From Archangium gephyra (GTDB taxonomy: Bacteria; Myxococcota; Myxococcia; Myxococcales; Myxococcaceae): a stretch of DNA of 64,000 bases. The stretch is taken from contig NZ_CP011509.1 in NCBI RefSeq assembly GCF_001027285.1, positions 11,184,501 through 11,248,500 on the forward strand. Direction: 5' to 3'. Under the pieces are notes generated by a model that was not told the origin of the DNA, searched no databases, and saw only the letters and a program-made list of their open reading frames with translations. Position 1 is the stretch's first letter; each line of letters starts with the position of its first letter. A program made the position numbers and the translations under genes. Shown piece after piece: positions 7,597 through 60,114 of the stretch.

Positions 7597-7625
7597 CCCG
7601 GGGCGGGGGTAGAGTGTCCCCTGCC

Positions 7626-8396
7626 ATGGACCTTTACGCGGAGATGGCGGCCCTGGTCGCCGAGGGCCGTCCGTTCGTACTGGCCACCGTCATCGAGAGC
7701 GCCGGCAGCACGCCGCAGAAGCCGGGCTCGAAGATGGTGGTGCTCGGGGACGGAGGCCTGCGGGGCACCGTGGGCGGTGGCGCCATCGAGCATCAGATCA
7801 TCCAGGCCGCGCGGGCCCTGCTGGAGTCCGCCGAGAGCACGCGCGTCATCGAGACGCACCTCACGCACGAGCTGGGCATGTGCTGTGGGGGCCGGATGAA
7901 GGTGTTCCTGGAGAAGCACGGGGCGCCGCCGAGGCTCACGGTGTTCGGCGCGGGGCACGTGGCGCGCGAGCTGGCGCTGCTGGCCCACCGGGTGGGCTTC
8001 CGGGTGACGGTGGTGGACGCCCGGCCCGAGTGGGCCACCCCCGAGCGCTTCCCCGGTATCGAATTGGTGCTGAAGGACCCCGCCGATTACGCGCGGACGC
8101 TGAGCGGCGGCACCGGACACTGCTTCTGCATCACCACGCACGACCACCCGCTGGACCAGGCGGTGGTGGAGGCGCTGCTGGACAAGCCCTCGGCCTACCT
8201 GGGGGTGATTGGGAGCCGGCGCAAGGCGGAGCGCTTCCGGATGAGGCTGAAGGCCGCGGGCTTCTCCGACGAGGCGGTGGCCCGGCTGCGCTCGCCCATG
8301 GGCGTGGAGATTGGCGCGCTCACCCCGGAGGAGATCGCCGTGTCCATCGTGGGGGAGCTCATCCGGGTGCGGCGCCTGGGTGCCTCGCCGGAGTAA
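7626..8396 (+). CDS. xdhC: XdhC/CoxI family protein
   Basis: A 256-residue protein with the two XdhC domains. The N-terminal half contains ESAGSTPQKPGSKMVV, GTVGGGAIEH and a CC pair in GMCCGGRM (C86, C87), which in XdhC helps bind or sulphurate the molybdenum cofactor. The C-terminal half is a Rossmann-like domain beginning VFGAGHVA (107-113), then DARPEWA and LGVIGSRRK. XdhC proteins deliver modified Mo cofactor to xanthine dehydrogenase-type enzymes, but no xdhA/xdhB or CO-dehydrogenase-type genes are in the window, so the client is unknown. A GTG at 7614 is an alternative start. It is 30 bp after pfk and 9 bp before the next gene, probably one transcript. Confidence 0.9.
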   Translation: MDLYAEMAALVAEGRPFVLATVIESAGSTPQKPGSKMVVLGDGGLRGTVGGGAIEHQIIQAARALLESAESTRVIETHLTHELGMCCGGRMKVFLEKHGAPPRLTVFGAGHVARELALLAHRVGFRVTVVDARPEWATPERFPGIELVLKDPADYARTLSGGTGHCFCITTHDHPLDQAVVEALLDKPSAYLGVIGSRRKAERFRMRLKAAGFSDEAVARLRSPMGVEIGALTPEEIAVSIVGELIRVRRLGASPE

Positions 8397-8405
8397 AGAG
8401 GGCCC

Positions 8406-9200
8406 ATGACGCTGAAGGTGATGACGCTCAACGTCCTCTTCGGAGGGCAGGATCGCTTCGAGTCCCTCCTCGCCCTGGTGGCGCGGGAGAGTCCGGACCT
8501 GCTGGTGCTGCAGGAGTGCCTGGGTTGGGACGATGGCGAGCGCCTGCGTCAGGTGGCCGCCACGCTGGGCCCCGAGGGCGCCGTCCACGCCCACCTGGGC
8601 TCCGCCCGCCCGCGAGGCAGCGGCAACTGCTACCACGTGGCCGTCCTCAGCCGCATGGCCCCGCGCTCCATCCGGGTGCACAACAACCCGCACTTCATCG
8701 GCCATGCGCTGGTGCAGTGCGAGTTCGACACCCGCGAGGGCCCGCTGACGTTCTTCGGGACGCACTACGACGCGCACTACGAGACGCTCCGCTTCGTCGA
8801 GGCGCGCTACCTGCGCTCGCTGCTGGACCCCGCCGCCTTCCGCGAGGGCCTCTACCTGCTGGCGGGGGATCTCAACTCGCTGTCACGCAAGGACCCGTAC
8901 CCCGTGGACCTCGCCGACCAGCTGCGCCTGGCGGGCGTGGACAAGTACGGCCACCCACCGCGCTTCGACGTCATCGATGACGTGGAGGCCTTCGGCTGGG
9001 TGGACACCCTGCGCCACCGGCCCGCCTCGCCCGCGTGGGTGACCGCGCGCCGCGTCCGCAACGGCGTGACGATCGATTACCGCACGGACTACATCTTCGC
9101 CTCGCTCCGGATGGCCGAGCGGCTCATCCACACCGAGGTCATCGACGTGGGCGAGGCCACCGACCACAACGCGGTGGTGGCCACCTTCCGCACCCATTGA
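8406..9200 (+). CDS. Endonuclease/exonuclease/phosphatase (EEP) fold hydrolase
   Basis: A 264-residue protein with the EEP metallo-hydrolase signature: MTLNVLF at 6-12 (Asn), LQEC with the metal-binding Glu (E37), THYDAHYETL, AGDLNS (Asp/Asn pair), TDYIFAS near residue 225, and a C-terminal TDHNAVVA with the catalytic His. This superfamily contains DNases, inositol-phosphate phosphatases and sphingomyelinases; the short loops and lack of a signal peptide suggest a cytoplasmic phosphodiesterase or phosphatase, but the substrate is unknown. It starts 9 bp after xdhC and is followed by a convergent lipoprotein gene 32 bp away. Confidence 0.85.
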   Translation: MTLKVMTLNVLFGGQDRFESLLALVARESPDLLVLQECLGWDDGERLRQVAATLGPEGAVHAHLGSARPRGSGNCYHVAVLSRMAPRSIRVHNNPHFIGHALVQCEFDTREGPLTFFGTHYDAHYETLRFVEARYLRSLLDPAAFREGLYLLAGDLNSLSRKDPYPVDLADQLRLAGVDKYGHPPRFDVIDDVEAFGWVDTLRHRPASPAWVTARRVRNGVTIDYRTDYIFASLRMAERLIHTEVIDVGEATDHNAVVATFRTH

Positions 9201-9232
9201 CTCCAGGCGGGCCCGCGAGGGGACTTCGTCCC

Positions 9233-9976
9233 TCACGGGGCGGCGAACACCACGGGCACCCGGCCAGACGACCTAGTCCGCGTGAAGCTGCAATCGGAGA
9301 AGTCGCAGCGCGTGATGCCCGGGTCGTAATCCCCCTCGAGCGCGATGAAGCCCTCACCCGCGGGGACCTCGGCGGGAACCGTGATGGAGAGGCGATTACC
9401 GTCCCGGACGTAGCCGTGGTTGAAGTGGAAGTTCTGCTCTCCACTGAAGAACGACAGCGACTCGAAGCTCGGAGGGTTGTCGAGGAACGCGGCGGCCGTA
9501 TCAGTGGCCGGCGAGCGCTCCACCACCACCGTCTGCCCGGGGTGCAGGACGCCATCCTCGGGGGAGACGACGCGGATGGACATCGGCGCGAACACGTTCT
9601 GGAACTCCACGACGCGCTCGAGGCCCAGGTCGAAGAGGCGGAAGGTGATCTTCTCGCTGTCCGCCGGGGCTACCCCCGTGAACCAGATGGGTTCACAGTT
9701 ATTGCTGAAGGGCTTCTTGAACTTGCTCCCCCGGCCCCGGATGTCCGCCGGCTTCCCGTTCACGGTGGCCTGCGCCGTCATGGACAGCACCGAGCAGTCA
9801 CCTTCAGGGTGGGCCTCGAAGTCGGACGCGTAGATGCTCACGCTGAAGCGCACCAGGCCGTCACCGGCGTCCTCCGCGGAGTACACGGTGAAAAAGCTGG
9901 TCCTGTTGTCGTCCGCCAGGTCACCGCAGCCCACCGCCATCGCGAGCACACCACCGAGCATCAGCTGTCGAATCAT
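9233..9976 (-). CDS. Hypothetical lipoprotein
   Basis: A 247-residue protein starting MIRQLMLGGVLAMAVGC: a basic n-region, a hydrophobic core and a lipobox-like end before the Cys, so probably a lipid-anchored periplasmic or outer-membrane protein. The mature part has several Cys that could form disulphides (EGDCSVL, NNCEP, RCDFSDC) and is rich in predicted beta strand (RVVSPEDGVLHPGQTVVVE, reminiscent of Ig-like cell-surface domains). I do not recognise the family. An ATG at 9988 is an alternative start adding four residues. The 235 bp upstream contain nested inverted repeats at 10,070-10,096. Confidence 0.75.
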   Translation of the reverse strand: MIRQLMLGGVLAMAVGCGDLADDNRTSFFTVYSAEDAGDGLVRFSVSIYASDFEAHPEGDCSVLSMTAQATVNGKPADIRGRGSKFKKPFSNNCEPIWFTGVAPADSEKITFRLFDLGLERVVEFQNVFAPMSIRVVSPEDGVLHPGQTVVVERSPATDTAAAFLDNPPSFESLSFFSGEQNFHFNHGYVRDGNRLSITVPAEVPAGEGFIALEGDYDPGITRCDFSDCSFTRTRSSGRVPVVFAAP

Positions 9977-10069
9977 TCCGTTCACCATGGCCGGGTTGCG
10001 TAGCATCGAACATGCCAGGGGCTCGCCCGAGGGGCGGAATGGACGCTCGCCGCTGCTCTGTAGCGGGAT

Positions 10070-10096
10070 GTGCATGCCCTCATGCACCGGGGTGCA
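10070..10096. promoter_or_regulatory. Nested inverted repeats between Roco gene and lipoprotein gene
   Basis: GTGCATG (10,070-10,076) pairs with CATGCAC (10,081-10,087) around CCCT. Overlapping it, TGCACC (10,083-10,088) pairs with GGTGCA (10,091-10,096) around GG. The two hairpins share bases and are mutually exclusive. They lie downstream of the Roco stop and about 95 bp upstream of the lipoprotein start on the same strand. No U-tract follows, so an operator or RNA switch-like element is as likely as a terminator. Confidence 0.4.
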
Positions 10097-10211
10097 CACC
10101 CCTGCGCATACTTCGAGTGTCCCCGGCCAGCACAACACCCCGCTCAGGAACAGTAGACGCCCCTCCACGAGAGCTGCTCCAGGCCTTCGACACCGTCGAG
10201 CGGGGGCGCTC

Positions 10212-12986
10212 CTACAAACGCTGCCGCCCTTTTCGGAGCTCCAGGATCTTGCGCTCAATGCCCTCTGAAACGTCGCGCCAGGCGGAGTCCTCGTTCGGCC
10301 ACAACGTCACGGCGAGCCCGTTCTTGGGGAGGGCCTGGAGCTTCGCGAACGGCGCGCTCTTCCAGTTCACATCCCGTAGAATGACGGGGATGACCACGGC
10401 GGTCCCCGCCTCGTGCCGCGCCAGGGCCGAGGTCATCTCGACATCGTAGCAATAGTCCGAGGCCAGGAAGTCCGCGCTCACCAGCAGCAGGATGATGTCG
10501 GCTCTTTCGAACTGGCTGGAGAGCTGCTCCTTCCACTCCTCGCCGGGTCCGATCATCCGCTCATGCCAGGTGGTGAGCAGCCCCTGACGTTGGAGCAGCG
10601 TGAGGTGCGGCTCCAGCCTGCTCCGCAGTGCCTCGTCCTTCTGGGAGTAGCTGTAGAAGAGATGCACGGGAGCGTCGAGCTGGCTCAGGTGCACCCACGA
10701 CATGGTCCGCACCAGGGAACTCTTGCCACCCAGCATACCGGGAGCATTGATGAGAAATGGATCCAGATGCTCCTTGGCATGGATCGGCAGATTCACACCA
10801 TTCAGGAGCTCTTTCACCTGGAGCTTTTCGACGCGGTTGCCAACCACCTTCGGGAGCTCGGTCTGCTCGTTCGCCTCGAATATCAGCAACTCCGCGTAGG
10901 GGATGACGACTTCGGGGTGTCCGGGAACGGGCACCATCTCTTGTGGGTCCAGCTTCGGGATGTCTCGGTGGATGCGCTCGAAATCCGAGCGGATGATCGC
11001 CAGCAATCGCCGCCGTCCCTCGACCGGGCCCGTCACGGAGATGAGCACCTTCTTTTCGGCGGGATCCGCCTTGACGAGGGCCCGGTTCCCCTCGAACCGG
11101 AGAATCACCCCTGTGCGCCAACGCGGCAGCTCTTCGCTCATCGCATGGGTGCGCACGATGAACCGGGGAAGCAGCCCCTCGGGAATCACGGGGTAATGGT
11201 ATTGGAAGTTGAGACATTCCTCGGGCCGGAAGTCGGCGGCCTCCGCCGGCTCCTGTTTGTCCAGCAACTCCGGAACGAGGTAGCGCGCATCATTGTCCGG
11301 GAAGGCGAAACACAGCTCGAACTTCTTCATCAGGTCGAGCAAGAAGCGGTACATCGCAGGAGGGTATTTCTTGGGCTCGAGAATCCGAGCCACATCCCTC
11401 AACCCCAGAACACCGCGCTGCTCCGCCAACAACTGCGAACTCAAGAGCTTGTAGATCCCATTGGTCACCCAATGTGGATTGAGCACATGGGTGTCCTGAA
11501 GCCGTGGGTCATCCTTATAATTGAGCGCGACCCCAAGCTGATGGAGGTGCACCGCCAACGACTCCTGCGCACCGGGCTCCGTCTCGCCATGCTTCTGACA
11601 GAACTTCTGGAACTCGGCGAAGGAGAGATAATTCTTCCGGGATTCCGACAGCTTGTCCTTGATCTCGAACCAACTGGCGGGGAACGCCACGCGAAGATTT
11701 TCGAGCCGGCTGGCCTCGTGCAGGATTGCTTCACGCAGGTCGTCAATGCCGGTACGGTCCGCACAATCCGTACGAATGAAGCCACGAATGCCCGGGTACT
11801 TGGCCTGTAACGCACGGCGATTGACATCGAACGAATGCTCGTGGGCCTTGTTGAGGACGATCAACACGGGAGAACCCTCCCCGAAGCTTTCGATCATTCT
11901 CAACCAGTAATCCGCGTCCTGATCTTCTGTTCCTTCACGGCCACTGAGGACGAGCAGGTACAGACTGCGCTGCGTCAGGAAGAACTGATGGGTTGCGTGG
12001 AGGATCTCCTGTCCGCCGAAATCCCAGAGATGGAGCCTTGCATCCTCATTGTTCAGGCGAACCGGCCAGGGGGAGATCTGGATGCCCTCCGTCTTGGCTT
12101 CACCCAGCTTGAACTTGTCATGGAGCAGGCGGTTGACCAGCGACGTCTTTCCCACACCCCCGCGTCCCACGAGGATCAGCTTCGCTTCATTGAGAGGCCG
12201 CCGCGCCTTCTTGATGCGGAAATAGAACTCCAGGATCAAATCAGGTGAAGCTGGCGTCAACCTGTTCAACAAGACTTCCGCATAGGTCGGGCCGAGGAGT
12301 TCCGGTGGCAACTTGAGTGCCGGATTGCCATGCAAGAACAGCTGCCCCAACCCCTTCAACTTCCTCAGGCTCTCTGGAAGCTTCGTCAAACTGTTGTTCG
12401 AGAGCACCAGAGTCTTGAGGGCTGACAACTGCCCCATGGATTCCGGTAGTGATTTCAGCTCATTGCCTTCAACCTGGAGATGTTCCAGCTTCTCGAGCCG
12501 CCCAATGGATTCTGGCAGCACGGTCAGGAGGTTCCCTGTAATCCAGAGTCCTTCCAGCGATTTCAAGTCACCGATCCGCTCAGGCAACACGGCCAATCCG
12601 TTGACCGAGGCGGAGAGGGTGCGCAACTGTGTCAGCCGGCAGATGGAATCAGGCAAAGCAGTCAGCCTGGTCCTGGTCAGCTCAAGCCCCACCAGTTGCT
12701 CGAGCTGCCCCATGGACTCAGGAAGCGCGGCCAGCGGATTGGCGCCGGCCGATAGCGATGTCAACTCCGTCAGTCCGCCGATCCAATCCGGTAACGTGGT
12801 CAGATTGTTGTTGGAGACATTCAGGGTGTACAAATGCGTTAGTCGGCCTATGGAGGCGGGAAGCGCATCGAGCCCCAGACCCGAAAGATCCAGGGAGCGC
12901 GCCCTCCGCCGTGCCGCTTGCCGGATGAGTTCTTCACAAATCTCTTGTGGCGTCTGGCCAGCTGGCTTCCGAGGCATGTGAACCAT
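10212..12986 (-). CDS. LRR-Roc-COR-TIR protein (bacterial Roco GTPase with TIR effector domain)
   Basis: A 924-residue cytoplasmic multidomain protein. Residues 30-235 hold about nine leucine-rich repeats of the L..LP.SIG.L type. A Roc GTPase domain follows (about 266-425): P-loop GRGGVGKTS at 274-282, DFGGQE at 322-327, and NKAH at 379-382 in place of NKxD. A COR-like region occupies roughly 435-710, including HVLNPHWVTNGIYKLL and YLVPELL, typical of Roco proteins. The C-terminus (773-915) is a TIR_2 domain: HLFYSYSQKDE, then DYCYDVEM where E850 is at the position of the NAD-hydrolase glutamate. LRRs would sense a ligand, Roc-COR act as a GTP-controlled dimer switch, and TIR signal or degrade NAD+ (inference). 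The GTP-specificity Asp is replaced by His. Base composition is somewhat less GC-rich than its neighbours. ATG at 12977 is an alternative start. Confidence 0.92.
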   Translation of the reverse strand: MVHMPRKPAGQTPQEICEELIRQAARRRARSLDLSGLGLDALPASIGRLTHLYTLNVSNNNLTTLPDWIGGLTELTSLSAGANPLAALPESMGQLEQLVGLELTRTRLTALPDSICRLTQLRTLSASVNGLAVLPERIGDLKSLEGLWITGNLLTVLPESIGRLEKLEHLQVEGNELKSLPESMGQLSALKTLVLSNNSLTKLPESLRKLKGLGQLFLHGNPALKLPPELLGPTYAEVLLNRLTPASPDLILEFYFRIKKARRPLNEAKLILVGRGGVGKTSLVNRLLHDKFKLGEAKTEGIQISPWPVRLNNEDARLHLWDFGGQEILHATHQFFLTQRSLYLLVLSGREGTEDQDADYWLRMIESFGEGSPVLIVLNKAHEHSFDVNRRALQAKYPGIRGFIRTDCADRTGIDDLREAILHEASRLENLRVAFPASWFEIKDKLSESRKNYLSFAEFQKFCQKHGETEPGAQESLAVHLHQLGVALNYKDDPRLQDTHVLNPHWVTNGIYKLLSSQLLAEQRGVLGLRDVARILEPKKYPPAMYRFLLDLMKKFELCFAFPDNDARYLVPELLDKQEPAEAADFRPEECLNFQYHYPVIPEGLLPRFIVRTHAMSEELPRWRTGVILRFEGNRALVKADPAEKKVLISVTGPVEGRRRLLAIIRSDFERIHRDIPKLDPQEMVPVPGHPEVVIPYAELLIFEANEQTELPKVVGNRVEKLQVKELLNGVNLPIHAKEHLDPFLINAPGMLGGKSSLVRTMSWVHLSQLDAPVHLFYSYSQKDEALRSRLEPHLTLLQRQGLLTTWHERMIGPGEEWKEQLSSQFERADIILLLVSADFLASDYCYDVEMTSALARHEAGTAVVIPVILRDVNWKSAPFAKLQALPKNGLAVTLWPNEDSAWRDVSEGIERKILELRKGRQRL

Positions 12987-50500: not shown

Positions 50501-53093
50501 ACAGGGCCGGCGTCATCCACGGCCAGACGGAGCAGGCGCCCACCTGGGGCAGCAGCGCGAAGCCGGCGAGGATGACGGCGAGGGGACGGACCTCGGGCAG
50601 GGTGCGCGAGGCCACGGCCACGGCGGCGGCGGCCAGGAGCACGGTGACGCCGAACCAGGGCACCTGGAGGGAGAGGCCCCAGAGGAACGCCAGGAGGGCA
50701 TAGGCGACGCCAGGCCAGCCGAGCAGCCGCGCACGGCCACCGAGTCCACCGAGGGCGGCGAGCCCCAGCGCCGAGACGGCGAGGGCCAGGGGCACCCACG
50801 ACGGGCCGGCGAGACTGGCGAGCTTGGGCACCACGGCGGCGGCGCCGAAGGCCGCGACGGCGAGCAGGGCGGGGTTGGCGAGGTTCCACGCGACGAGGAG
50901 CGCGGCGGCGCCACAGAGCACCATGCCCGTCAGCGCGGAGACACGGGCGTCCGCGCCGAGACTGAACACGAAGCCGAGGGCGGAGAGCCAGGCCACGGCG
51001 GTGCTGAAGGCGAGACACGTGCGGCGGGTGCAGACGAGCGACAGCGCGGCGAACGCGAGCGCCACCGTACCGCACACGAGCGAGGCCCCCACGGCGCCGA
51101 AGAGGGAGTAGGCGGAGAGGGGGAGGAAGAAGGTGAGCGCGGCCCCGACGATGGACAGGTAGAGGCGCTCGAGGAGCAGACCGGTGGCCACGCAGACGCA
51201 GATGAGGCCGAGCGTGGTCCAGAAGGCCGGGCGCAGATCCGAGCCCATGTGGCCGAGGAGGACGAAGAGCGGGCTGGCGACGGCGGTGGCGCGCAGGAGG
51301 ACCTCGGAGCACTCCGCGTCACGGGCCGAGGAGGTGCGCTCGGCACGGGAGCGCAACCACCCGGCGAGCACGGCGCCCGCGAGGACGAAGGGCACGGCGG
51401 TGAGCGCCCCGTAGTGGAACGGGAGCTTGCCGGCCACGGGGTAGCCGAGCGAGGCCTTGAGCGAGTCGATCAGCGCCTTCACGGCGCCGGGGATGAGCTG
51501 GCCGGCGGAGGCATACGAGAAGTAGGCGCCGGCATAGGCGAGGTACACCCAGCGCACGCGGGGCAGCTCGCCGCGGGAGAGGCCGAAGACGGTCCAGGTG
51601 AAGACGGCGGCGGAGAGGAAGAAGGAGGGAGGGGCGCCGGTGGCGGCGAGCGCGAGGCAGCCCACCTGGAGCGAGGCGATGCCCACCGAGAGCGAGTCCG
51701 CGGCCTCCTCGGGAGGCAGGCGGCGGAAGCCGAGGCAGGTGGCGAACAGGAAGGCGAGGAGTGGGGCGTAGCTGCCGAAGGAGGGGGCCACATCGGCGGC
51801 GGCGAGGGCCAGGTGCAGACGGATGGCGTAGAGCAGCAGCAGGTAGAAGGGCGCGGCGAGGACGAAGGCGAGGGCCTTGTTGCCGCGGGGCTCGGGGACG
51901 GGCCTGCGCGAGAGGACGAAGAAGAAGGCGCAGGGCAGCACGTCCAACCAGAACGCGAGGGCGCTCCGGGCGAAGAGCGGCGCGAGCCCCATCATCAACG
52001 TGGTGCAGAGCAACGCGCGCTGGATGAGGGGACGAGAAGGAGCGTCGAAGGACTCGGCGGGCTTGCGGACGAGGGCGGCGGCACCGACGGACCAGCCGAG
52101 GAGCAACGGCAGCAGGAGCGCGAGCGGTACACCGTCGAGGTGGAGACCGCCGAGAGGCCCGAGGGCGATACCGGCGAGGGGCGCGACAGCGGCGCCGATG
52201 AGGCCGAGGATGCGGCCGGCGCCGGAGAGGGCCTCGCGACGGGCGAGGAGGGAGCCGCAGATGGAGAAGGCGGCGGAGTAGCCCGCGGTCATGCCGAAGA
52301 CGACGAGCGAGCGGGTGAAGGAGGTGAGGCCGGCCCAGCTATCGAAGGCGAGGTAGAGGGAGCCGGCGACGATGAGGAAGGCGCCGATGAACCAGCCGAT
52401 GCTCTCATAGAGGAAGGGGCGCCAGACGGTGTCCCAGGTCGAAGCCTCCTCGACGATGCGAGCGGTGACGGTGCGAACGGGAGGAGGATCGAAGAGGGGC
52501 TCGGTGACAACGGGAGGAAGCCGGGCCAACACCTCCTCGCGAGCCTCTTCCGCCCCCTCGTCCTCGTCCCCCTCGTCCTCGTCCTCGTCCCCCTCGTCCC
52601 CCTCCTTTCCCCCGCGCCCCTCCTCTCCCTCGCCCTCCGGGAGAGGGTCGGGGTGAGGGTGCCGGGCCTCCCGGGTTGAATCCGCGTCAACGCCCTCTCC
52701 CTCTGGGAGAGGGTCGGGGTGAGGGTCTACGGAGGCGAGCACCGGCTCCGTCACAGGCGAGGCGAGGACAACCTCCGGAGCCGCCGCCACCTCCGGAGCC
52801 CCCACGCGCTCCCCCACGGGCTGAGCGGGAGCAGCCTCCGTGCGGGAAGCTGCGGGAGCATCGGCGAGGACGGAGAGGAGGATCCGCACCTGGCGCTCGT
52901 AGCGCTGGGTGAGATAGCTCCGGGCGCCCTTGGGGACGTAGGTGGCGTCCCAGAGTTGCAACTCACCGAGGAGGAACTGGACGTGGGCGAGCTCCTGCTC
53001 CAGGGCCTGGCGAGGGCGCGGAGACATGGAATTGCCGCACGCGGCGCAGCGCAGGCCGCCGAGGCGCTCCTGGCGGCAGGACGAGCAGTACAT
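47595..53093 (-). CDS. Very large polytopic membrane protein with N-terminal zinc ribbon (1832 residues)
   Basis: Starts MYCSSCRQERLGGLRCAACG: two CxxC pairs (C3/C6, C16/C19) form a zinc-ribbon head. A helical region (30-75) is followed by a low-complexity acidic linker (about 80-190) containing two copies of PHPDPLPEGEG and an Asp/Glu run. From residue ~230 to the C-terminus there are dozens of closely spaced hydrophobic helices with short loops, giving perhaps 45-50 membrane spans. This arrangement is reminiscent of the uncharacterised DUF2339-type bacterial membrane proteins, which are smaller. No transporter, glycosyltransferase or enzyme signature is recognised. Transcription runs toward the P450 gene. 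No good ribosome binding site was found, but the frame has no plausible earlier start. Confidence 0.85.
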   Translation of the reverse strand: MYCSSCRQERLGGLRCAACGNSMSPRPRQALEQELAHVQFLLGELQLWDATYVPKGARSYLTQRYERQVRILLSVLADAPAASRTEAAPAQPVGERVGAPEVAAAPEVVLASPVTEPVLASVDPHPDPLPEGEGVDADSTREARHPHPDPLPEGEGEEGRGGKEGDEGDEDEDEGDEDEGAEEAREEVLARLPPVVTEPLFDPPPVRTVTARIVEEASTWDTVWRPFLYESIGWFIGAFLIVAGSLYLAFDSWAGLTSFTRSLVVFGMTAGYSAAFSICGSLLARREALSGAGRILGLIGAAVAPLAGIALGPLGGLHLDGVPLALLLPLLLGWSVGAAALVRKPAESFDAPSRPLIQRALLCTTLMMGLAPLFARSALAFWLDVLPCAFFFVLSRRPVPEPRGNKALAFVLAAPFYLLLLYAIRLHLALAAADVAPSFGSYAPLLAFLFATCLGFRRLPPEEAADSLSVGIASLQVGCLALAATGAPPSFFLSAAVFTWTVFGLSRGELPRVRWVYLAYAGAYFSYASAGQLIPGAVKALIDSLKASLGYPVAGKLPFHYGALTAVPFVLAGAVLAGWLRSRAERTSSARDAECSEVLLRATAVASPLFVLLGHMGSDLRPAFWTTLGLICVCVATGLLLERLYLSIVGAALTFFLPLSAYSLFGAVGASLVCGTVALAFAALSLVCTRRTCLAFSTAVAWLSALGFVFSLGADARVSALTGMVLCGAAALLVAWNLANPALLAVAAFGAAAVVPKLASLAGPSWVPLALAVSALGLAALGGLGGRARLLGWPGVAYALLAFLWGLSLQVPWFGVTVLLAAAAVAVASRTLPEVRPLAVILAGFALLPQVGACSVWPWMTPALSVALFVPWSLGASVATARWGRSASTVTAGLVALLYPVVVVAAARGEQPYPLSLGAALVALLTARALHPSVSVVTTSLWAAVFVFLSTQAWHSLVLATLLSLLALLESHRTAFRFLAGERRFSLAATLCALGFLLLACVDARRGMSQAVLAGTVLLPLVWTRANRQPFFAGLAPLLSLFLVLETHLSLPWAAALPLFALAVVRAAEHLPAARLLLLGMSEEKPVRELSLWMQGALTLVGVVLVPQTHAEPWVLAPLAASLVLLPGPRPSVRVGLGVGLLLFCFPLHLGVIVLLLVLGFLTHHTPGALWAFFRAPPDTSLRTVTVVGALALCGWRLLLNAATPGAIALLAGVLLVGAFLLSRRWMLTASVLVLAGASLGRTAEHAFLEWRPEAALAFAAVALGAAVLSALCQVGGIQRAVTRLAARLSPGLPDTWSEPLWTAGALTTAVPVVVHLLDLGPGALPLPVALLAGLASLVLMVSREREMANVAAALLAGVLVAAVPPLWAPAVVSVTGLLLCMAGTWLDERDVAVGAALHHAGWVLALLSVLGLRDLKHPGTAVCLLSGITTAWAVVYRRPERAVVGWVASLVGLHALLAHVGALFSTGRGAEFILPFFGAISALLATTALFLASDRIRRGVGHSFAVVALVEVLGGLVLVPGAAGVVVAALVDCACLAVLFFALVRRAVREEDETSAFLAVWTVVLGYLSVRLHALASGLGTADSLVALVGGALFSGLYVFAMREGSGLPAFRRPALWAAYLFPMVGLLTAPWGQPLYVAALLVGYAAHFAALAAHPSQRGMSSLVSVGAFNAALFVVWMGTGAGEPQYYVIPAGLSLLVLLRVFHEALEPDMRAKLRALAITLVYVAGAWKPLMFQDGGSMLLCVLLCLVGVAAGMALRIRSYVYLGSAFLVTCVLANLARFGIRDHRMGAAFLSLLGVGVVGFMVLFTAKRAELLERYERVRAMMDTWEG
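52626..52658. repeat. Dispersed GC-rich repeat inside coding sequence, copy 2
   Basis: Encodes PHPDPLPEGEG (residues 146-156) on the leftward strand. It matches copy 1 at 52,692-52,724 with the same reading frame and orientation, and its arms (a Ccctc...GGGAGAGGG-type hairpin) resemble the intergenic repeats at 15,207-15,240 and 2423-2446. The copies are about 66 bp apart. Confidence 0.75.
52692..52724. repeat. Dispersed GC-rich repeat inside coding sequence, copy 1
   Basis: Encodes PHPDPLPEGEG (residues 124-134) on the leftward strand. On the forward strand it has an internal inverted repeat CCCTCTCCC / GGGAGAGGG-like and then GGTCGGGGTGAGGG. It is in the acidic linker of the large membrane protein, where insertion would be tolerated. 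Confidence 0.75.
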
Positions 53094-53250
53094 GGTGGGT
53101 CGACCCCTCTACAACGACCATGCCGGGCGTGAAGCCCAGGGAAATGAGGAACTTGAGGCGTGGGGTGCTACCCGCCTGACGCAGTGCGCCCGTGCCCATG
53201 TGCAGCGTACTGCACAAGGGGACGAGAGCGCACGGGGGGCCCTGGGGCCC

Positions 53251-54201
53251 TCAGTCCCGCCAGGGCTCGGTCTGGAGGACACACAGCGGCCCATCGCCGC
53301 ACTGCACGAGCAGGACGCCACTCTCATGGCGTACCAGTACGGAGCCAGGAGTGCCCGGCACACTGGCACCGGAGTCCACGAGCCGGGTGCTCAGCACCCG
53401 CATGCGCTGGCCCTGGAGGGTGGTGAACGCGGCACCTTCGCGGCCGCCCCGGCAGGGGGCCATGCGGCAGGCACGGACCTGGAGGTGGACCGCACGCGCG
53501 GGCTGGGTCCAGTCGATCTCCCGGTAGGAGTCCTCGAAGAGGCCCGCGTAGCTGCCCTGCTCGGAGGACTGGGGCTCTCCGGGCTCGCCCCAGGCCACGC
53601 GGCTGAGGACGTCCGGCAGCAGCTCACCGGCCAGCACCATCACCTTCTGGAGGATGGCCTCCACGGTGTCCGTATCGTGGAGGGGCCTGCGGCCCTGAGC
53701 GAGCACCGGCCCGGTGTCGAAGTCCGCATCCATGCGGTGGAACGTCAGGCCGACTTCCGGCTCCTGGCGGCGCAGCGTCCAGCCGAGGGGATTGGGGCCA
53801 CGGTGGCGCGGCAGCAGCGAGGGGTGCACGTTCACGGTGCCCAGAGGGGGCACGGAGAACGCCTCGGGAGGGATGCGCCAGGGGAAGAAGAAGCTGAGGA
53901 CGAAATCCGGCCGCGCCGCCGCGAGCAGAGGAGCGAGGTGGGCGCGCTGACTGGCGATGAGCACGTCGGTGCCGGGAGGAGCGGCGCGGACGAGCTGATG
54001 CATGACGGACCAGCCCTGCTCGTCCTGGGGCCGGGGGCCGCCCTGCCCCGCGGGGAGCACCAGCGCCACCAGCTCGTGTCCCCGGGCGCGCAGCAGGTTT
54101 CCGAAGCAGGTCACCACATCCGGAGATACGGTGAGCAGCGCGATGCGCCACCCGTGGTAGCTGACGGGAAAGCTGACGGGCGAAGAGGAGCTGAGCGGCA
54201 T
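53251..54201 (-). CDS. Formyltransferase-fold protein (methionyl-tRNA formyltransferase-like)
   Basis: A 316-residue protein with the formyl_transf_N fold. The catalytic triad is in place: N124 and H126 in GTVNVHPSLLPRHRG and D162 in DADFDTGPVL. The C-terminal ~100 residues (SYAGLFEDSYREIDWTQPARAVHLQVRAC) resemble the formyltransferase C domain found in Fmt and ArnA-like enzymes. It would use 10-formyl-THF to formylate an amine, but the N-terminus lacks the classic MRIVFMGTP, and a serine-rich head precedes WRIALLTVS. It may therefore be a paralogue acting on a sugar or aminoacyl group rather than the housekeeping Fmt; the acceptor cannot be determined. Its upstream region contains the left copy of the argB repeat. 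Confidence 0.85.
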   Translation of the reverse strand: MPLSSSSPVSFPVSYHGWRIALLTVSPDVVTCFGNLLRARGHELVALVLPAGQGGPRPQDEQGWSVMHQLVRAAPPGTDVLIASQRAHLAPLLAAARPDFVLSFFFPWRIPPEAFSVPPLGTVNVHPSLLPRHRGPNPLGWTLRRQEPEVGLTFHRMDADFDTGPVLAQGRRPLHDTDTVEAILQKVMVLAGELLPDVLSRVAWGEPGEPQSSEQGSYAGLFEDSYREIDWTQPARAVHLQVRACRMAPCRGGREGAAFTTLQGQRMRVLSTRLVDSGASVPGTPGSVLVRHESGVLLVQCGDGPLCVLQTEPWRD

Positions 54202-54230
54202 GACCTGAGCCTATCCGCTCCCGCGGCCAC

Positions 54231-54669
54231 GCGCCCGAGCCCCGCGGACACACAGGGGCACGGGCGCGCCCAGCCACTACCTGCGCAGGAACGCGGTGCC
54301 CTGACTGCCGGCCTTCTCGGCCTCGCGCAACACGGCTCGTTGGGCGAGATGCCCACGATGTGGATGGCCTCGATGCCCTCCTCCAACATCTCCAGGCTCT
54401 CCTCCACCTTGGGAATCATGCCGCCCTGAATCACGCCGGAGGCAATCTTGGCGCGGGCCTCGGCGGGAGTCAGCGTGGGCAGGCGGGTGGACGGATCGTC
54501 CTTGTTGGCGAGCACGCCGGGCACGTTGGACACGAGGAACAGCTTGGCCGCCCCGAGCTTCGCGGCCACGCGGGTAGCCACCGTGTCCGCGTTGACGTTG
54601 AACACGTTGCCCTGCGCATCACCCGACAGCGAGCCGAGCACCGGGACGAAACCCGCGTCCGAGACGCGC
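54231..54669. repeat. Left copy of 439-bp direct repeat (argB 3' end plus flank)
   Basis: Aligns base for base with 58,160-58,598 with seven substitutions, one extra base near 54,254 and one missing base near 54,336. It runs from 46 bp beyond the argB stop (on the leftward strand) to within argB. Homology stops abruptly at both edges, at GCGCCCGAGC on the left and GAGACGCGC on the right. It is inferred to be the old chromosomal 3' end displaced by the insertion. Confidence 0.9.
54277..54669 (-). pseudogene. argB: Truncated, frameshifted argB remnant
   Basis: A 5'-truncated copy of the acetylglutamate kinase gene, equivalent to the last ~131 codons of the intact argB at 58,205. The frame is readable as GSLSGDAQGNVFNVNADTVA through HIVGISPN, then a single-base deletion near 54,336 shifts it, so the natural C-terminus is lost. 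The deleted base and several substitutions mark it as non-functional. It is missing the whole N-terminal carbamate-kinase-like half, including the KIGGE and HGGGPQ motifs. Confidence 0.88.
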
Positions 54670-54936
54670 GTAGCGCTGCCGTCAGCTTCCTAATGAGCCA
54701 GTTGATAGTCAAGAAACGCTCGCAAAGAAGCGTTCTGAATCCCTCTAAGCGCCCATCAGGATCGCCAACCCCACTTCGGGCTTATCAGCCCTCTCAAGAA
54801 TTTTGGCTGGTGCACGGCAAATTCTTCGACATCGCGCCTAACACTCACTATCGTCGAGCCCCATCAAGCTGGAGGGAGCACGGCTATTCGTGACTCTTCC
54901 TCTTAACTACGGATACCGCAAACGCGGAGTTGGTGC

Positions 54937-55359
54937 ATGGAGAAGCAGACGCAGACCTCGCCAGTCGATGCGAGCCTTTCAGAGCAGAACCTCATCTGGG
55001 GGCTTCTTCTGTCCATGCGGATTGAAGGGTTCCAAGAAATTGAGATCTCGAACGGACTCTTTCACAAGGCGTTCGCACGTCTCCTGGATGAACATGGTGG
55101 GCAGGTGGAGCAGTTGCTTGGGTTCGTGCCAGTAGCGAACCCTCTTTTTGGCGAATTTCCTTCTGTGAACGAGGCGCTCGACGAAGCTCATCGTGCTGGG
55201 ATTGTCGGATTCCACAATCCAACATACCGCCGGATGACACTAGAGTTATCTCGGGAATCAGCGCAGCGACTACTTGGCCGCTTTGGCCAAAGCAGTATCA
55301 TCTATCAGAGTCTCGCCCACTCGTTTGCTGAATACTACAGCAAGCTCACGAACAAATAA
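54937..55359 (+). CDS. Island gene 1: hypothetical 140-residue protein
   Basis: A small, probably soluble, mostly helical protein with no signal or membrane segment. Residues 16-62 (EQNLIWGLLLSMRIEGFQEIEISNGLFHKAFARLLDE) read as two helices of a compact bundle; the C-terminal half has FHNPTYRRMTLELSRESAQRLLGRF and a final helix. I recognise no family. A CGGAG site 11 bases upstream supports the ATG at 54,937. Its stop is 24 bp before the HD-fusion gene on the same strand, so the two form an operon, making it a likely partner, regulator or sensor of that enzyme (inference). The 267 bp upstream, from 54,670, must hold the promoter; a short inverted repeat there is AACGCT (54,715-54,720) and AGCGTT (54,729-54,734). 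Confidence 0.8.
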   Translation: MEKQTQTSPVDASLSEQNLIWGLLLSMRIEGFQEIEISNGLFHKAFARLLDEHGGQVEQLLGFVPVANPLFGEFPSVNEALDEAHRAGIVGFHNPTYRRMTLELSRESAQRLLGRFGQSSIIYQSLAHSFAEYYSKLTNK

Positions 55360-55383
55360 ATACAACAAACGGAGCGCATTGCC

Positions 55384-58044
55384 ATGCAGGTGAGGGGGGA
55401 ACTTCAGCGTGCGGCCCCTGAGCTGATGAAGTCCATAGAAGCGTTTGTGTCCGAACGGACGAAAGACGCCCGCGACACCAGCTCGAAATCGATCAACGAC
55501 CCGGTCTGGAAAACCATCAGTCTTTACCGCTGGGAGGTCGCCCTACTCGACTCAGCAATGCTCCAGCGGCTTCGCCGCATTCGGCAGCTCGGTGTCGTAG
55601 AGTTGGTCTTCCCGGGAGCAGGCTACTCCCGCTTCGAACATTCAGTCGGCTGCGTTCACGTCATGCAGCTGCTCATTGATGCGCTACGTCGTGGCGGTAC
55701 AGAAGTCACGAAGGACGAACAGTATTTATTGCGACTTGCGGCGTTACTGCATGACGTAGGGCATTGTGCCTTCAGCCATGTCAGCGAGAAATACTATCAG
55801 GACTTTGAGGTCGGACCAAAGACGACCTTCACCGCACTGCGCCAGACGCTCGCACAGAAATTTGGAAATCGCCCTGCGGCAAGCGAAGTTTTGTCCGCCG
55901 CCATTGTATCAAGCGAGGCATTCGAGCGATATCTCCAAGCCATCCAGATTCCGCTTGAATCGCGTACAATGCGCCGCGGCGAAGCTGCCGATTGGATCGC
56001 CAAATTGATCCTCGGGAGTTATCCTGACCCATCGCGACCGTACCTTACGCAACTGCTGACAGGCCCCTTCGACGCAGACAAACTCGACTACATGCCACGA
56101 GATTGCCTGCTCTCCGGCATCCCGTTACCTGTAGACGTACCACGGCTTATCGACAAATTGCGCGTGGTACAAGTTACCGTGGGGCAGCTATCGGGCTCCA
56201 TGCAAAAGCGCTTTCACCTCCCTCGCGAAAAGCCAGTCACGGTATTAGGAGCTGCGTTTTCGGGAACACGCGCCATCGAAGAAATGCTCATCGCTCGAGC
56301 ATTACTGTACGACAAGCTATACTACCATACAAAGGTGCGAGCGGCAGAAGGACTGGTGAACCGCGCCATTGAAAGACTACTCGACGGCCGACCTGACCTG
56401 AAGACGCCTGGAGCGTTCCTGCAACTCGATGAACAGGAGTTGCAACTGCTCGGTGCACCTTCATTAATCTATGCCGGACGCCAAACCGTCGTACCACGGG
56501 CGGAGGCGCTATTCACGCAATATCGTGAGCGACGCCTGCCACAACGCGCGCTGTGTTTCGCCAAAACGCTGATAATTGGCCCTACAGAACATAAGGAGCG
56601 TTGGGCCGAACTCCATCAAGATTGCCGAAGTTGGGGGCCGCGAAAAAATTTAGAGACCGAAATCCGGGAACTAGCTAAGCAGCTTTGTGCCGTCGCCAAC
56701 ACAGGCATCCAGGTCGATGATGATGATATATTCATTACGTACCCGGAGTCCGCGCGAATGCACACCTCGGTTGACACGTTTGTCGTGTCCGAGGACGGAC
56801 AAGTAACTTCCTTCCATACGCCTCGACAGGGAGAGTTGTCGTCCGACGAGGCCGTCACACTACAGCAACTCTTCGCTGTTGACCGTTGGGTCGACACTTA
56901 CGAGACGAATAAAGCCTTCGGTTTCGTCCTCTGCAAGCCGGATGTTCGACCTCAGGTACATGTCGCCACGGAGATTGTATTCGCGAAACGGTACAACTTG
57001 CAGTTCAACGACGGCCGATTCCGCCTCTGCAAGCTTTCGGAGGAGGAAATCAACGCGGTCGAGCGGCTGGCACTTGAGCATGGATTGTTTAAAGAGACAC
57101 CTCAACTGCGGCCACTGTCCGATTTCCTACGTAACTCCGATACACGAAGTCGTATCGATCGACTCGCAGAACGGCTGTCAGAAGTCGAAACTGACGAAGA
57201 AGCCTCACGCCCATCAGCACTGCGCATCCTCACTTGGCTCCACCAACTGCCTGACGGACTCCAGCAAGCAGCGCTGCCAGCGCTGGAACGCATCCGGTTG
57301 TTCCGGCGGCAGGACTTCGTGAAGGATATAGAGGCTGCACGACGAACCCCAGCAGTAGCGTCGCTTTCCCGGCCTGTGTGGGTTCCCCTGGGCGGCCCGA
57401 AGGATAGCGCCGCACGCTGGGGTTACTACATGCATGACGAGGCATTGAAGAGCCCAGGCAGTGATGTGAGTGCGATTGAGGTCAAACCAATCGAAGCAGC
57501 TTTGCGGGTCAAGAACGCGCCTCTAGTATTCTTCGACGATTGCTTCTACAGCGGAGGACAAGTCGAAACTGTCTTTGCCCAATGGTTGGGTGAAGCGGGG
57601 AAGATCGACGAAGAGCACGTTGACCCACTTCCCGCCGACCTCCGCGATGAACTGCGCCGCCGAGACTGCGTCCTCGTGTATGCGCTCGGTAGGGAAGATA
57701 GAAAGCAAGAGCTTACTGAGCGCCTACAGAAACTCGGGCTGCAAGTTAAGGACATTGTGGTGGTTGAGTCCCTCTCCGAAGATGGATTGGCGAGCACAAT
57801 GCCGGAGGAACAGATTGAGCCCCTGCGCAAACACCTACGGCATGTAGGCGAGTCTCTATTGCGGAGTACGAAGCCAACCTGGGATGAGCAACGTATACAA
57901 GAGCGCGCCCTCGGTTACGGCAATGGTGGTCACCTTGTGGCATTCCAAATGAACGTGCCGACTTTTACGGTCACAGCGCTCTGGTCCCGCGGCGACTATG
58001 AGGGACGACCATGGCTTCCACTACTGCCGCGAAGGTCGAAATAG
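55384..58044 (+). CDS. Island gene 2: HD phosphohydrolase (SAMHD1/dGTPase-like) fused to phosphoribosyltransferase-like domain
   Basis: An 886-residue cytoplasmic protein. The N-terminal ~330 residues are a SAMHD1/YwfO-type HD domain: AMLQRLRRIRQLGVVELVFPGA, SRFEHSVG with H86, LLHDVGHCAFSH with H123 and D124, and DADKLDYMPRDC with D232, giving the full H..HD..D metal set. The DADKLDY/RDC segment mirrors that of SAMHD1 (DVDKWDYFARDC). A middle region (about 330-660) of unknown fold follows. The C-terminal ~170 residues contain PLVFFDDCFYSGGQ (713-726), matching the PRPP-loop hhhhDDxxxSGGx of type I phosphoribosyltransferases, and end LPLLPRRSK. HD enzymes of this class remove triphosphate from dNTPs. 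Together the domains suggest nucleotide or PRPP-directed chemistry. An ACGGAG site ten bases before the ATG supports this start. Confidence 0.85.
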   Translation: MQVRGELQRAAPELMKSIEAFVSERTKDARDTSSKSINDPVWKTISLYRWEVALLDSAMLQRLRRIRQLGVVELVFPGAGYSRFEHSVGCVHVMQLLIDALRRGGTEVTKDEQYLLRLAALLHDVGHCAFSHVSEKYYQDFEVGPKTTFTALRQTLAQKFGNRPAASEVLSAAIVSSEAFERYLQAIQIPLESRTMRRGEAADWIAKLILGSYPDPSRPYLTQLLTGPFDADKLDYMPRDCLLSGIPLPVDVPRLIDKLRVVQVTVGQLSGSMQKRFHLPREKPVTVLGAAFSGTRAIEEMLIARALLYDKLYYHTKVRAAEGLVNRAIERLLDGRPDLKTPGAFLQLDEQELQLLGAPSLIYAGRQTVVPRAEALFTQYRERRLPQRALCFAKTLIIGPTEHKERWAELHQDCRSWGPRKNLETEIRELAKQLCAVANTGIQVDDDDIFITYPESARMHTSVDTFVVSEDGQVTSFHTPRQGELSSDEAVTLQQLFAVDRWVDTYETNKAFGFVLCKPDVRPQVHVATEIVFAKRYNLQFNDGRFRLCKLSEEEINAVERLALEHGLFKETPQLRPLSDFLRNSDTRSRIDRLAERLSEVETDEEASRPSALRILTWLHQLPDGLQQAALPALERIRLFRRQDFVKDIEAARRTPAVASLSRPVWVPLGGPKDSAARWGYYMHDEALKSPGSDVSAIEVKPIEAALRVKNAPLVFFDDCFYSGGQVETVFAQWLGEAGKIDEEHVDPLPADLRDELRRRDCVLVYALGREDRKQELTERLQKLGLQVKDIVVVESLSEDGLASTMPEEQIEPLRKHLRHVGESLLRSTKPTWDEQRIQERALGYGNGGHLVAFQMNVPTFTVTALWSRGDYEGRPWLPLLPRRSK

Positions 58045-58131
58045 TACCGTTCGCATGACGCGACGCATGGATGTCGTGCAGTAGGCGCTCTGACAATATA
58101 GCCAAAGCGCTCCCCAACGCGGCCTTGAAGG

Positions 58132-58154
58132 TTCAGGCAGACAACATGCCTGAA
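58132..58154. other. Perfect 8-bp inverted repeat at the right end of the island
   Basis: TTCAGGCA (58,132-58,139), loop GACAACA, TGCCTGAA (58,147-58,154). It lies 88 bp after the HD-fusion stop and 5 bp before the argB direct repeat. There is no U-tract, so it may be a terminator stem, a recombination-site arm, or both. Confidence 0.55.
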
Positions 58155-58159
58155 GCAAT

Positions 58160-58598
58160 GCGCCCGAGCCCCGCGGACACACGGGGCACGGGCGCGCCCA
58201 GCCACTACCCGCGCAGGAACGCGGTGCCCTGACTGCCGGCCTTCTCGGCCTCGCGCAGCACGGCGTCGTTGGGCGAGATGCCCACGATGTGGATGGCCTC
58301 GATGCCCTCCTCCAACATCTCCAGGCTCTCCTCCACCTTGGGAATCATGCCGCCCTGAATCACGCCGGAGGCAATCTTCGCGCGGGCCTCGGCGGGAGTC
58401 AGCGTGGGCAGCCGGGTAGACGGATCGTCCTTGTTGGCGAGCACGCCGGGCACGTTGGACACGAGGAACAGCTTGGCCGCCCCGAGCTTCGCGGCCACGC
58501 GGGTGGCCACCGTGTCCGCGTTGACGTTGAACACATTGCCCTGCGCATCACCCGACAGCGAGCCGAGCACCGGGACGAAACCCGCGTCCGAGACGCGC
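58160..58598. repeat. Right copy of 439-bp direct repeat (argB 3' end plus flank)
   Basis: The copy joined to the rest of argB. It contains the 3' 393 bp of argB, its stop at 58,205-58,207 and 45 bp beyond. All codons are intact here, unlike the left copy. In the insertion model this is the element-borne replacement end that keeps argB functional. Confidence 0.9.
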
Positions 58599-59053
58599 TG
58601 GAAGGCCTCGGTGTTCACGCCGGTGACATCGCCCACGAGTCCCAGGTCCACGGGGTCCGGGCCCGCGCCGCTCATCACCTTGGGAGGCCGGCGCTTCGCG
58701 TCGATGAGCCCGGCGGACATGCCGGTGGTGCACAGCGCGGGCACGCCCGCGATGCGGAAGGCCGAGGCCACGTCCACGGACACCTGGCCCGCGAGCGTCA
58801 TCTTCATCACCTCGAGGGTGGCCTCGTCGGTGTAGCGGCGGCCCGCCACCATCTTCGGCTGCAGGCCCAGCCGCTTCTGCATCTCCGTGGCCTGGGGCCC
58901 GCCACCGTGGATGACGGCCACGCGCACGCCCGCGTCGAGGAAGGCGCGCACGGCGGCGCCCACGCTCGCGGCGAGCTTCGGCTTGTCCATGGCCAGCTCG
59001 CCGCCAATCTTCACGACGAACCAGCGCCCGCGGAAGTCGGAGAGTCCGCTCAC
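58205..59053 (-). CDS. argB: Acetylglutamate kinase
   Basis: A 282-residue enzyme phosphorylating N-acetyl-L-glutamate with ATP, the second step of arginine biosynthesis. The amino-acid-kinase fold shows KIGGE (15-19, catalytic Lys), HGGGPQ (49-54), GRRYTDE (71-77) and, in the C-terminal half, VLGSLSGDAQGNVFNVNAD and GGMIPKV. It lacks the N-terminal helix typical of arginine-inhibited hexameric enzymes, so feedback control by arginine is uncertain. The GTG at 59,053 overlaps the argC stop (GTGA), a typical coupled start; a GTG two codons upstream is an alternative. Its last 131 codons are duplicated at 54,277-54,669, and the island begins 46 bp beyond its stop. Confidence 0.95.
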   Translation of the reverse strand: MSGLSDFRGRWFVVKIGGELAMDKPKLAASVGAAVRAFLDAGVRVAVIHGGGPQATEMQKRLGLQPKMVAGRRYTDEATLEVMKMTLAGQVSVDVASAFRIAGVPALCTTGMSAGLIDAKRRPPKVMSGAGPDPVDLGLVGDVTGVNTEAFQRVSDAGFVPVLGSLSGDAQGNVFNVNADTVATRVAAKLGAAKLFLVSNVPGVLANKDDPSTRLPTLTPAEARAKIASGVIQGGMIPKVEESLEMLEEGIEAIHIVGISPNDAVLREAEKAGSQGTAFLRG

Positions 59054-60114
59054 GGCCACAGCCCCGGCTCGGCGAGCGTGAGGCGCTCGTCCCAGCCCAT
59101 CATGAGGTTGAAGCTCTGGATGGCCTGGCCCGCGCCGCCCTTCACCAGGTTGTCGAGCGCCGAGAAGCACACCACGCGCCGGGTATTGCCCGTCACGGGG
59201 CCGAGCGTGAAGCCCACCTCCACGTAGTTGCTGCCGGACACGCCCACCACCTCGGGCTGGCGGCCGCCGCTCACAATGCGGATGAAGGGCTCGTTGCCAA
59301 ACGCCGTCTTCCACGCGGCGGTGAGCTGCTCCTGCGTGACGGAGGCGGGCACCTCGGCGAACGAGGTGGAGAAGATGCCGCGCGGCAGCGGCGCCGACAC
59401 GGGCACGAACTCCAGCGACATGTCCTCCTTGCCTCCCGCGATGCGCAGCGTCTGGAGGATCTCGGGGATGTGCTGGTGCTCGAGCGGCTTGTACGTGCGC
59501 AGGTTGGCCGCGCGCAGCGGGTGGTGCGTGGTGATCTGCGGGTTGGCGCCGCTGCCCGAGGAGCCCGTGGCGGCCACGGTGTGGATGGGGCCGGTGAGCA
59601 GGCCCGCCTTGGCCAGCGGCAGCAGGCCGAGCGCGATGGTGGTGGCGAAGCAGCCGGGGCTGGCGATGTAGCGCGCCTTGCGGATGGCCTCGCGGTTGAG
59701 CTCCGGCATGCCGTAGGTGAAGGAGCCGTCGGTGAGCATCTGCGGCGCCGGGTGGTCCACGCCGTAGTACTTCGCGTAGGCGGCCGCGTCGCGCAGGCGG
59801 AAGTCGCCGGACAGGTCCACGATGCGCACGCCCGTGTTGAGGATGTCCAGCACCACCTTGGCGGTGGTCTTGTGGGGCATGGCCAGGAAGGCCACGTCCG
59901 CGCCGGCCACGGCCTGGGCGGGGGGCATCTCCTGGAAGGAGAGGTCCGTGAGCCCGGCGAGGTTGAAGTGGACGTCGCCCACCTTCTTGCCGATGTTGTC
60001 CACCGCCGTGACGCGGACCACGTCCACGTTGGGGTTGAAGAGGAGCCGGCGGAGGATCTCGGCTCCGCCGTAACCGGTACCGCCGATGAGGACTGCCTTG
60101 ACCTTGTTGGCCAT
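59050..60114 (-). CDS. argC: N-acetyl-gamma-glutamyl-phosphate reductase
   Basis: A 354-residue enzyme reducing N-acetylglutamyl phosphate with NADPH to the semialdehyde, the third arginine-pathway step. The Rossmann start is VLIGGTGYGGAEILR; the active-site thiol is C156 in SPGCFATT; GSSGSGANPQ and HRH-type EHQHIPEI carry substrate-site residues. The ATG at 60,114 was preferred over 60,120 because a GGAG site nine bases upstream gives better spacing. argC and argB form a two-gene leftward unit with overlapping ends. No argJ or argD is adjacent, so the pathway genes are scattered. A divergent GNAT gene starts about 210 bp upstream. Confidence 0.95.
   Translation of the reverse strand: MANKVKAVLIGGTGYGGAEILRRLLFNPNVDVVRVTAVDNIGKKVGDVHFNLAGLTDLSFQEMPPAQAVAGADVAFLAMPHKTTAKVVLDILNTGVRIVDLSGDFRLRDAAAYAKYYGVDHPAPQMLTDGSFTYGMPELNREAIRKARYIASPGCFATTIALGLLPLAKAGLLTGPIHTVAATGSSGSGANPQITTHHPLRAANLRTYKPLEHQHIPEILQTLRIAGGKEDMSLEFVPVSAPLPRGIFSTSFAEVPASVTQEQLTAAWKTAFGNEPFIRIVSGGRQPEVVGVSGSNYVEVGFTLGPVTGNTRRVVCFSALDNLVKGGAGQAIQSFNLMMGWDERLTLAEPGLWP

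Follow-up and report, generated by a model that had tools for sequence, protein, structure and literature searches.

A small acidic protein family that accompanies SAMHD1-like HD proteins through effector exchange suggests an unnamed immune module in Archangium gephyra

The window analysed here is a 64,000-nucleotide stretch of the Archangium gephyra genome (contig NZ_CP011509.1, positions 11,184,501–11,248,500), and the gene of interest is a 140-codon open reading frame (ORF), hereafter the partner, that lies directly upstream of a gene for an HD-PRTase fusion protein. Members of the partner family occur next to HD proteins with an effector domain at the C-terminus, and they persist when that effector is exchanged for another. 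The two genes are co-inherited, the HD site is conserved and a fold could be predicted for the partner. A small acidic protein encoded nearly always beside a SAMHD1-like HD enzyme with exchangeable, probably toxic ends suggests an immune module that is so far unnamed. The best explanation, to which a probability of about 0.6 is given, is that a mobile anti-phage immune module of HD core and effector has the 140-residue protein as its dedicated regulatory subunit.

The partner ORF extends from an ATG (nt 54937–54939) to a TAA (nt 55357–55359), and after a gap of 24 bp the HD fusion starts at nt 55384. These coordinates agree with a preliminary description of the window, made from the letters alone, which had noted a 140-residue ORF 24 bp upstream of the fusion and a low GC content shared by the pair. 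The latter is also borne out: GC content and GC at third codon positions (GC3) are 0.525 and 0.589 for the partner and 0.560 and 0.596 for the HD fusion, compared with 0.70–0.71 and 0.88–0.98 for three flanking genes. When a profile of 27 partners from other loci (A7), from which the window sequence and its closest relative (L048) were both excluded, was run over the 12.49 Mb genome, the single match at E <= 1 was the window ORF (E = 1.5e-11). At the level of sequence comparison, the leave-out profile thus confirms it, above chance, as a real gene. The nearest homologue found, L048 from a deltaproteobacterial metagenome-assembled genome, shares 30% identity over 125 residues (single-comparison E = 1e-18).

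Searches with the single partner sequence detected no relative in genome contigs, plasmids, phages, viral contigs or 95 other genomes of its family. Relatives were reached by way of the HD protein, through its matches on plasmids and viral contigs and then an alignment of HD N-termini. Six of the seven loci opened first (L032–L037) have an ORF of 134–149 residues just upstream of the HD gene with a common NP-x-aromatic motif; at the seventh (L038) the HD gene stands alone and has no partner. The N-terminal alignment was scanned over one genome per species (84,980 species) and gave 185 confirmed stretches, the best 80 of which were combined with the 7 earlier loci into a co-occurrence set of 87; the scan is not a full census, because a short exact motif was required first. 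In the family of the window organism, 92 of 96 genomes matched in the HD search, with a full-length match only in G000; 29 of the remaining loci (L003–L031) are among the partnerless controls described below. Among 40 HD-matching plasmid records, 11 were examined: H1–H4 carry the pair, and H6, H10, H15, H16, H18, H23 and H34 encode HD proteins of 431–510 residues with no partner. The partner family spans several phyla.

Co-occurrence was assessed with leave-one-out partner profiles on ORFs within 2 kb of each HD gene (E-values for 1000 sequences), and loci without a listed partner were searched with the full partner profile. The partner is present at 31 of 33 HD ORFs of at least 500 residues (E <= 6e-4; it is lacking at L062 and L085) and at 5 of 54 shorter ones (L037, L048, L050, L059 and L061). 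All five belong to the long kind but are cut short or broken up: L037 stops at an IS6 element, L048 and L050 reach a contig end, and in L059 and L061 the gene is divided between two ORFs. Counted with the family, they give 36 of 38 loci with a partner versus 0 of 49, where three of the 49 short loci (L081, L087, L094) hold less than 450 bp upstream and four (L068, L069, L098, L115) are cut at a contig end; locus counts are uncorrected for kinship, and L036 and L057 are near-identical. The preliminary description had treated the two genes as a pair and proposed co-occurrence as the check, with HD fusions that usually lack the partner, or a partner widespread alone, as the outcomes that would speak against it. 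The pairing is supported, as the partner is absent from only two of the 33 long HD ORFs. A further 34 HD loci (L003–L031, L038, L044–L047) have no partner by the full profile; their proteins end 232–311 residues after the DxD motif of the core and therefore hold no effector domain of the size found in the window. Six more plasmid HD genes of 455–510 codons (L171–L176) were likewise without a partner by the full profile. Three of these, on alphaproteobacterial plasmids (L171, L172, L174), follow genes for a radical SAM protein, a 3'-5' exonuclease and an AAA family ATPase.

Copies away from HD genes were sought with a profile (A6) of 29 of the 37 partners, with L036, L037, L041, L054, L057, L059, L061 and L066 left out. 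Among 27 HD-carrier genomes, a single copy, located at the HD locus, was found in 25, and two have none (G108, which carries L062, and G117, which carries L085); 23 of the 25 copies were already in the profile, so that this result is informative mainly on the lack of second copies. Two matches were obtained from the order of Bradyrhizobium (397 genomes), two from the class of Microbacterium (394) and one from the phylum of the window organism (195), all at known HD loci. No lone partner was therefore seen in these 986 genomes, of which at most 10–21 candidates per genome were scored; since this number was 10 in the Bradyrhizobium and Microbacterium groups and 21 in the phylum of the window, divergent lone copies could be missed. 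A partner widespread on its own was thus not encountered in either the carrier or the sampled genomes. The distance matrices of partner and HD core are correlated (Spearman 0.72, n = 33, with L048, L057, L059 and L086 left out), a value reached in 0 of 5000 permutations and uncorrected for kinship.

The C-terminal part of the HD protein varies between loci. PRTase-CE was matched in 15 of 23 rows of alignment A9 at E <= 0.001 (L053 was counted here although the regular expression returned 'none/truncated'), and 18 loci have instead a PD-(D/E)xK-like motif, consisting of D, then ENK or ELK, mostly with Q.RRY after it. Sixteen of the latter were recognised by regular expression and two (L070, L061) by eye; the nuclease label is motif-based, as no Pfam nuclease was found in the nine of the 18 that were scanned. 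Neither effector class was assigned in 6 of 39 loci, the window included in the total (L037, L048, L050, L059, L085, L092). The PRTase loop picked by regular expression in L032, L060 and L064 was a wrong stretch. Of the 15 PRTase-CE loci 14 retain the partner, as do all 18 nuclease-motif loci, and this retention across the swap ties it to the HD part of the protein and not to one effector.

The gene order is partner first and HD gene second, both on one strand, in 34 of 36 relatives; the two are separated by −29 to 65 nt, counted from starts chosen by hand. A divergent gene whose start appears MerR-like by eye is found just upstream in 11 of the 39 family loci, ten in the nuclease branch plus the truncated L037. 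A profile built from five of the eleven retrieved ten at E < 1e-30 and L054 at 0.0014, and the gene is absent from nt 52001–60000 of the window. With a separate regulator-like gene at these eleven loci, the partner need not be a repressor; the separate gene can take on the control of transcription there.

None of 29 partner members matched Pfam, NCBIfam or PADLOC at E <= 0.01, in keeping with the initial impression that the sequence gives no family by eye, and in PHROGs two unnamed families were weakly matched, by one member each. Modelling from a 33-row alignment returned a confident structure (predicted local distance difference test (pLDDT) 91.5, predicted template modelling score (pTM) 0.83) with a helix at residues 16–29, a strand at 34–36, helices at 38–61 and 75–86, strands at 90–92 and 99–102, and then helices at 106–114 and 119–138. 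The predicted fold is that of a winged helix (helix-strand-helix-helix-strand-wing-strand) with two extra helices. In a structure comparison (VIA-align), 179 of 1000 chains reached Z >= 5, with a best Z of 7.5 and none at 8 or above; many of the 50 listed matches are winged-helix proteins. Foldseek returned no match for the model at E <= 0.001, and since neither search gave a hit at these levels no closer family was assigned. The structural matches to Orc1, MukE, Jet and Lmu chains were not accepted as evidence of relationship, since unrelated winged helices scored equally well. Nothing usable came from comparing the structure with viral models or the profile with PDB sequences. The only columns conserved to at least 90% in alignment A8 are Asn94-Pro95, which the model places between the two wing strands. 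Net charge is negative in 29 of 33 partners and positive in three (mean −5.2), and the third helix is net-positive in five of the 33 (−2 in the window). As judged from composition, this acidic charge would be more in keeping with a winged helix that binds protein than with one that reads DNA.

The neighbouring HD fusion gave Pfam matches to HD (1.9e-8), HD_assoc_2 (1.1e-7) and PRTase-CE (2.3e-21), the last at 77.2 bits against a gathering cut-off of 27. SAMHD1-type and other HD chains in the PDB were matched by phmmer with E-values of 3.9e-15 to 2.8e-25, and the AlphaFold model (mean pLDDT 85.9, pTM 0.72) aligns with SAMHD1-type structures at a Foldseek E of 5.6e-18 and a TM-score of 0.74 by target length. 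The site residues, for which we assume the correspondence with SAMHD1 numbering, are well conserved: all 23 aligned members have R83, H86, H123 and D124, and H127, H132, D230 and D232 are present in every member but the contig-end fragment L048 (22 of 23). With its H...HD...D metal site and predicted fold, the core is SAMHD1-like. There is also weak similarity to an NCBIfam model for a phosphoribosyltransferase-like anti-phage protein (E 0.0094; score 15.2 bits, cut-off 250).

The pair is found in mobile settings, namely plasmids, phage tail genes and the insert in the window. Two phage-like contigs (L032, nt 2249–10276, and L033, nt 1486–8385) carry it between a tail protein gene, of a minor tail protein family in L032 and a major tail protein in L033, and genes for a tail chaperone or tail protein and a tape measure. 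The tape-measure-like gene of L033 is short and the locus has, by eye, the look of a gene transfer agent. In the window, the pair occupies a low-GC insert of 3.5 kb with a copy of the argB 3' end on either side, a fragment on the left and part of the complete gene on the right; the two copies are identical in 431 of 440 alignment columns (98%). The layout could be explained by a single crossover of a circle carrying an argB fragment. No integrase-like gene and no third ORF of note were noticed inside the insert, and an Rfam scan of nt 54200–58700 returned nothing at E <= 1. In five other genomes of the genus (L166–L170; 10.5–11.5 kb read in each) both the insert and an argB duplicate are missing beside argB. 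The nearest aligned flanks there are 1.3 to 7.8 kb apart, and because this distance varies the spot may be a hotspot. At this spot L166 and L167 have several genes in common, and L166 has a uracil-DNA-glycosylase-like gene (by eye). Coordinates of the features are collected in Table 1.

Table 1. Features of the insert, the gene pair and the divergent gene found at related loci (window positions unless a locus is named)
Feature	Position	Strand	Basis
Partner gene, 140 residues; modelled as a winged helix followed by two C-terminal helices	54937–55359	+	ORF, leave-out profile, model
GGAG, probable ribosome-binding site of partner, 7 nt 5' of ATG	54926–54929	+	read directly
Asn94-Pro95 codons in wing; NP-x-aromatic motif, at least 90% conserved in family	55216–55221	+	alignment; wing position from model
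HD-PRTase fusion, 886 residues	55384–58044	+	ORF, Pfam, AlphaFold model, Foldseek
GGAG, probable ribosome-binding site of HD fusion, 9 nt 5' of ATG	55371–55374	+	read directly
HD domain, residues 83–195, in SAMHD1-like core	55630–55968	+	Pfam HD, phmmer, Foldseek, residue columns
PRTase-CE domain, residues 617–883, with FFDDCFYSGGQ loop	57232–58032	+	Pfam 2.3e-21; PADLOC PRTase_III-A 3.4e-10
Low-GC insert with two-gene module	54671–58159		GC, repeat alignment
Left direct-repeat copy: truncated argB 3' part and bases after	54231–54670		argB named by eye, runs on - strand
Right direct-repeat copy, inside complete argB, and bases after	58160–58599		alignment to left copy
Divergent MerR-like gene	L033: 2056–2469; L035: 4038–4478; L036: 3981–4448; L041: 595–1035; seven more loci		

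From these results we infer binding of the partner to the HD protein, a direction of control and a role in immunity. The acidic winged helix would dock on the common SAMHD1-like core by way of its conserved Asn-Pro wing, and would either keep the C-terminal domain silent (PRTase-CE here, PD-(D/E)xK-like in relatives) or pass a phage cue to it. Release of the partner after infection, or a change in the nucleotide bound by the HD core, could be the trigger that lets the effector act, and the active effector would stop the infected cell. A bolder form of this idea is put forward only tentatively and is rather less probable: an undescribed immune platform in which the HD core is a nucleotide-responsive switch, gated by the acidic winged-helix subunit, itself of a new family, through its Asn-Pro wing, and in which this core sets off C-terminal killer domains that can be swapped for one another (PRTase or nuclease).

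Several points weigh against a dedicated regulatory subunit. Foremost among them is L062, which encodes an HD-PRTase and has no partner at the locus or elsewhere in its genome, so that the partner is not strictly needed, or the L062 copy is dead, or its genome is incomplete. Two further loci show that core, partner and effector can separate: L085 (nt 1475–3151) encodes a 558-residue HD relative with neither partner nor recognisable effector (by eye), as if both had been lost together, and in L092 (nt 5520–9986) a family HD protein lacks a C-terminal effector and has behind it two genes, by eye for an OLD-like ATPase and an HNH-like protein, which perhaps supply the effector in trans. The partner is divergent from the HD gene in L055 and L060, and co-transcription is therefore not required. 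The correlation of distances shows co-inheritance as a unit and not binding, and the defence role is argued from domains and mobile context.

A somewhat unlikely alternative is that of a classical antitoxin, with the partner blocking a toxin that is active by default, in a type II toxin–antitoxin pair serving stability or abortive infection. A small acidic protein encoded 5' of a larger enzyme, carried together on plasmids, would fit such a pair, as would the presence of a chain from the DarTG toxin–antitoxin complex among the middling structural matches (Z 6.4). Yet the HD-PRTase of L062 exists without any partner, no PADLOC, Pfam or NCBIfam family was matched by the 29 members, and an antitoxin is in any case a special case of a regulatory subunit and not fully separable from it. 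It is less probable still that the partner is an autorepressor whose winged helix binds operator DNA and solely controls transcription of the pair. The DNA binders BusR and RTP are among its structural neighbours, its gene is upstream of the HD gene, and a Crp-HTH match was seen (E 0.026, weak and below the cut-off); against this stand the predominantly acidic family with its rarely positive third helix, the placement of the best conservation in the wing and not in that helix, and the other, divergent regulator-like gene at 11 loci. That two unrelated genes came together by chance or shared transfer is hardly credible: low GC throughout an insert is expected of any neighbouring genes, but the association at 36 of 38 loci versus 0 of 49 extends over several phyla and includes two divergent arrangements.

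The type III-A retrons are among the nearest known arrangements. According to PMC12548924, PRTase and winged-helix effector genes are typical of type III-A1 retrons, and in the window a PRTase related to the PADLOC PRTase_III-A models likewise occurs with a small winged-helix protein. This raises the possibility, which appears very improbable, of a retron remnant, in which the partner belongs to the PRTase and the reverse transcriptase has been lost. The insert differs from these retrons in having neither a reverse transcriptase nor an RNA recognised by Rfam, and its PRTase is fused to a SAMHD1-like HD core. The partner also occurs with HD proteins carrying the nuclease motif in place of the PRTase, in all 18 such loci, and no PADLOC match was found for the 29 members. 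A type III-A retron is defined by a reverse transcriptase gene and a non-coding RNA beside the effector pair, and the system in the window lacks this combination.

The pair can also be compared with other systems. In sequence, predicted fold and HD residues the core resembles SAMHD1 and bacterial SAMHD1-like hydrolases of deoxynucleoside triphosphates (dNTPs), such as the Enterococcus faecalis HD protein (2o6i/4lrl). It differs from these in its extra C-terminal effector and adjacent partner, the 49 short HD ORFs and 40 further controls being partnerless. The Pfam family PF24390 (PRTase-CE) covers the C-terminal domain alone, and the partner has no Pfam match. Middling structural similarity (VIA-align Z 6.2–6.5) links the partner to the winged-helix chains of Wadjet JetABC, Lamassu LmuABC and MukE, which are subunits of immune or chromosome machines; unlike them, it has no SMC-type ATPase and no sequence relation was found, and the Z-scores tie with those of many winged helices. 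Defence modules in which an effector is exchanged on a common core are a known general kind, and the putative module here is like them in its common core and partner with varied C-terminal effectors, the core being a SAMHD1-like HD domain; no system of this sort came up in the literature searched. What is already known are the HD and PRTase-CE domains and the PRTase and winged-helix pair of type III-A retrons (PMC12548924). The partner family and its association with the HD core were not found in the family libraries or in the literature searched, a search that left most subscription papers outside.

The partner constitutes a clear protein family in several phyla that is without a match in Pfam, NCBIfam or PADLOC. 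SAMHD1 is known chiefly from humans, as a restriction factor that acts by depleting dNTPs, and a bacterial SAMHD1-like core that keeps one partner while swapping effectors would link the SAMHD1 family to modular prokaryotic immunity. The module of HD protein and partner would give a testable system for how a SAMHD1-like core is switched and, if the platform reading is true, bacterial SAMHD1-type proteins would be scaffolds for effector immunity and not only dNTP hydrolases.
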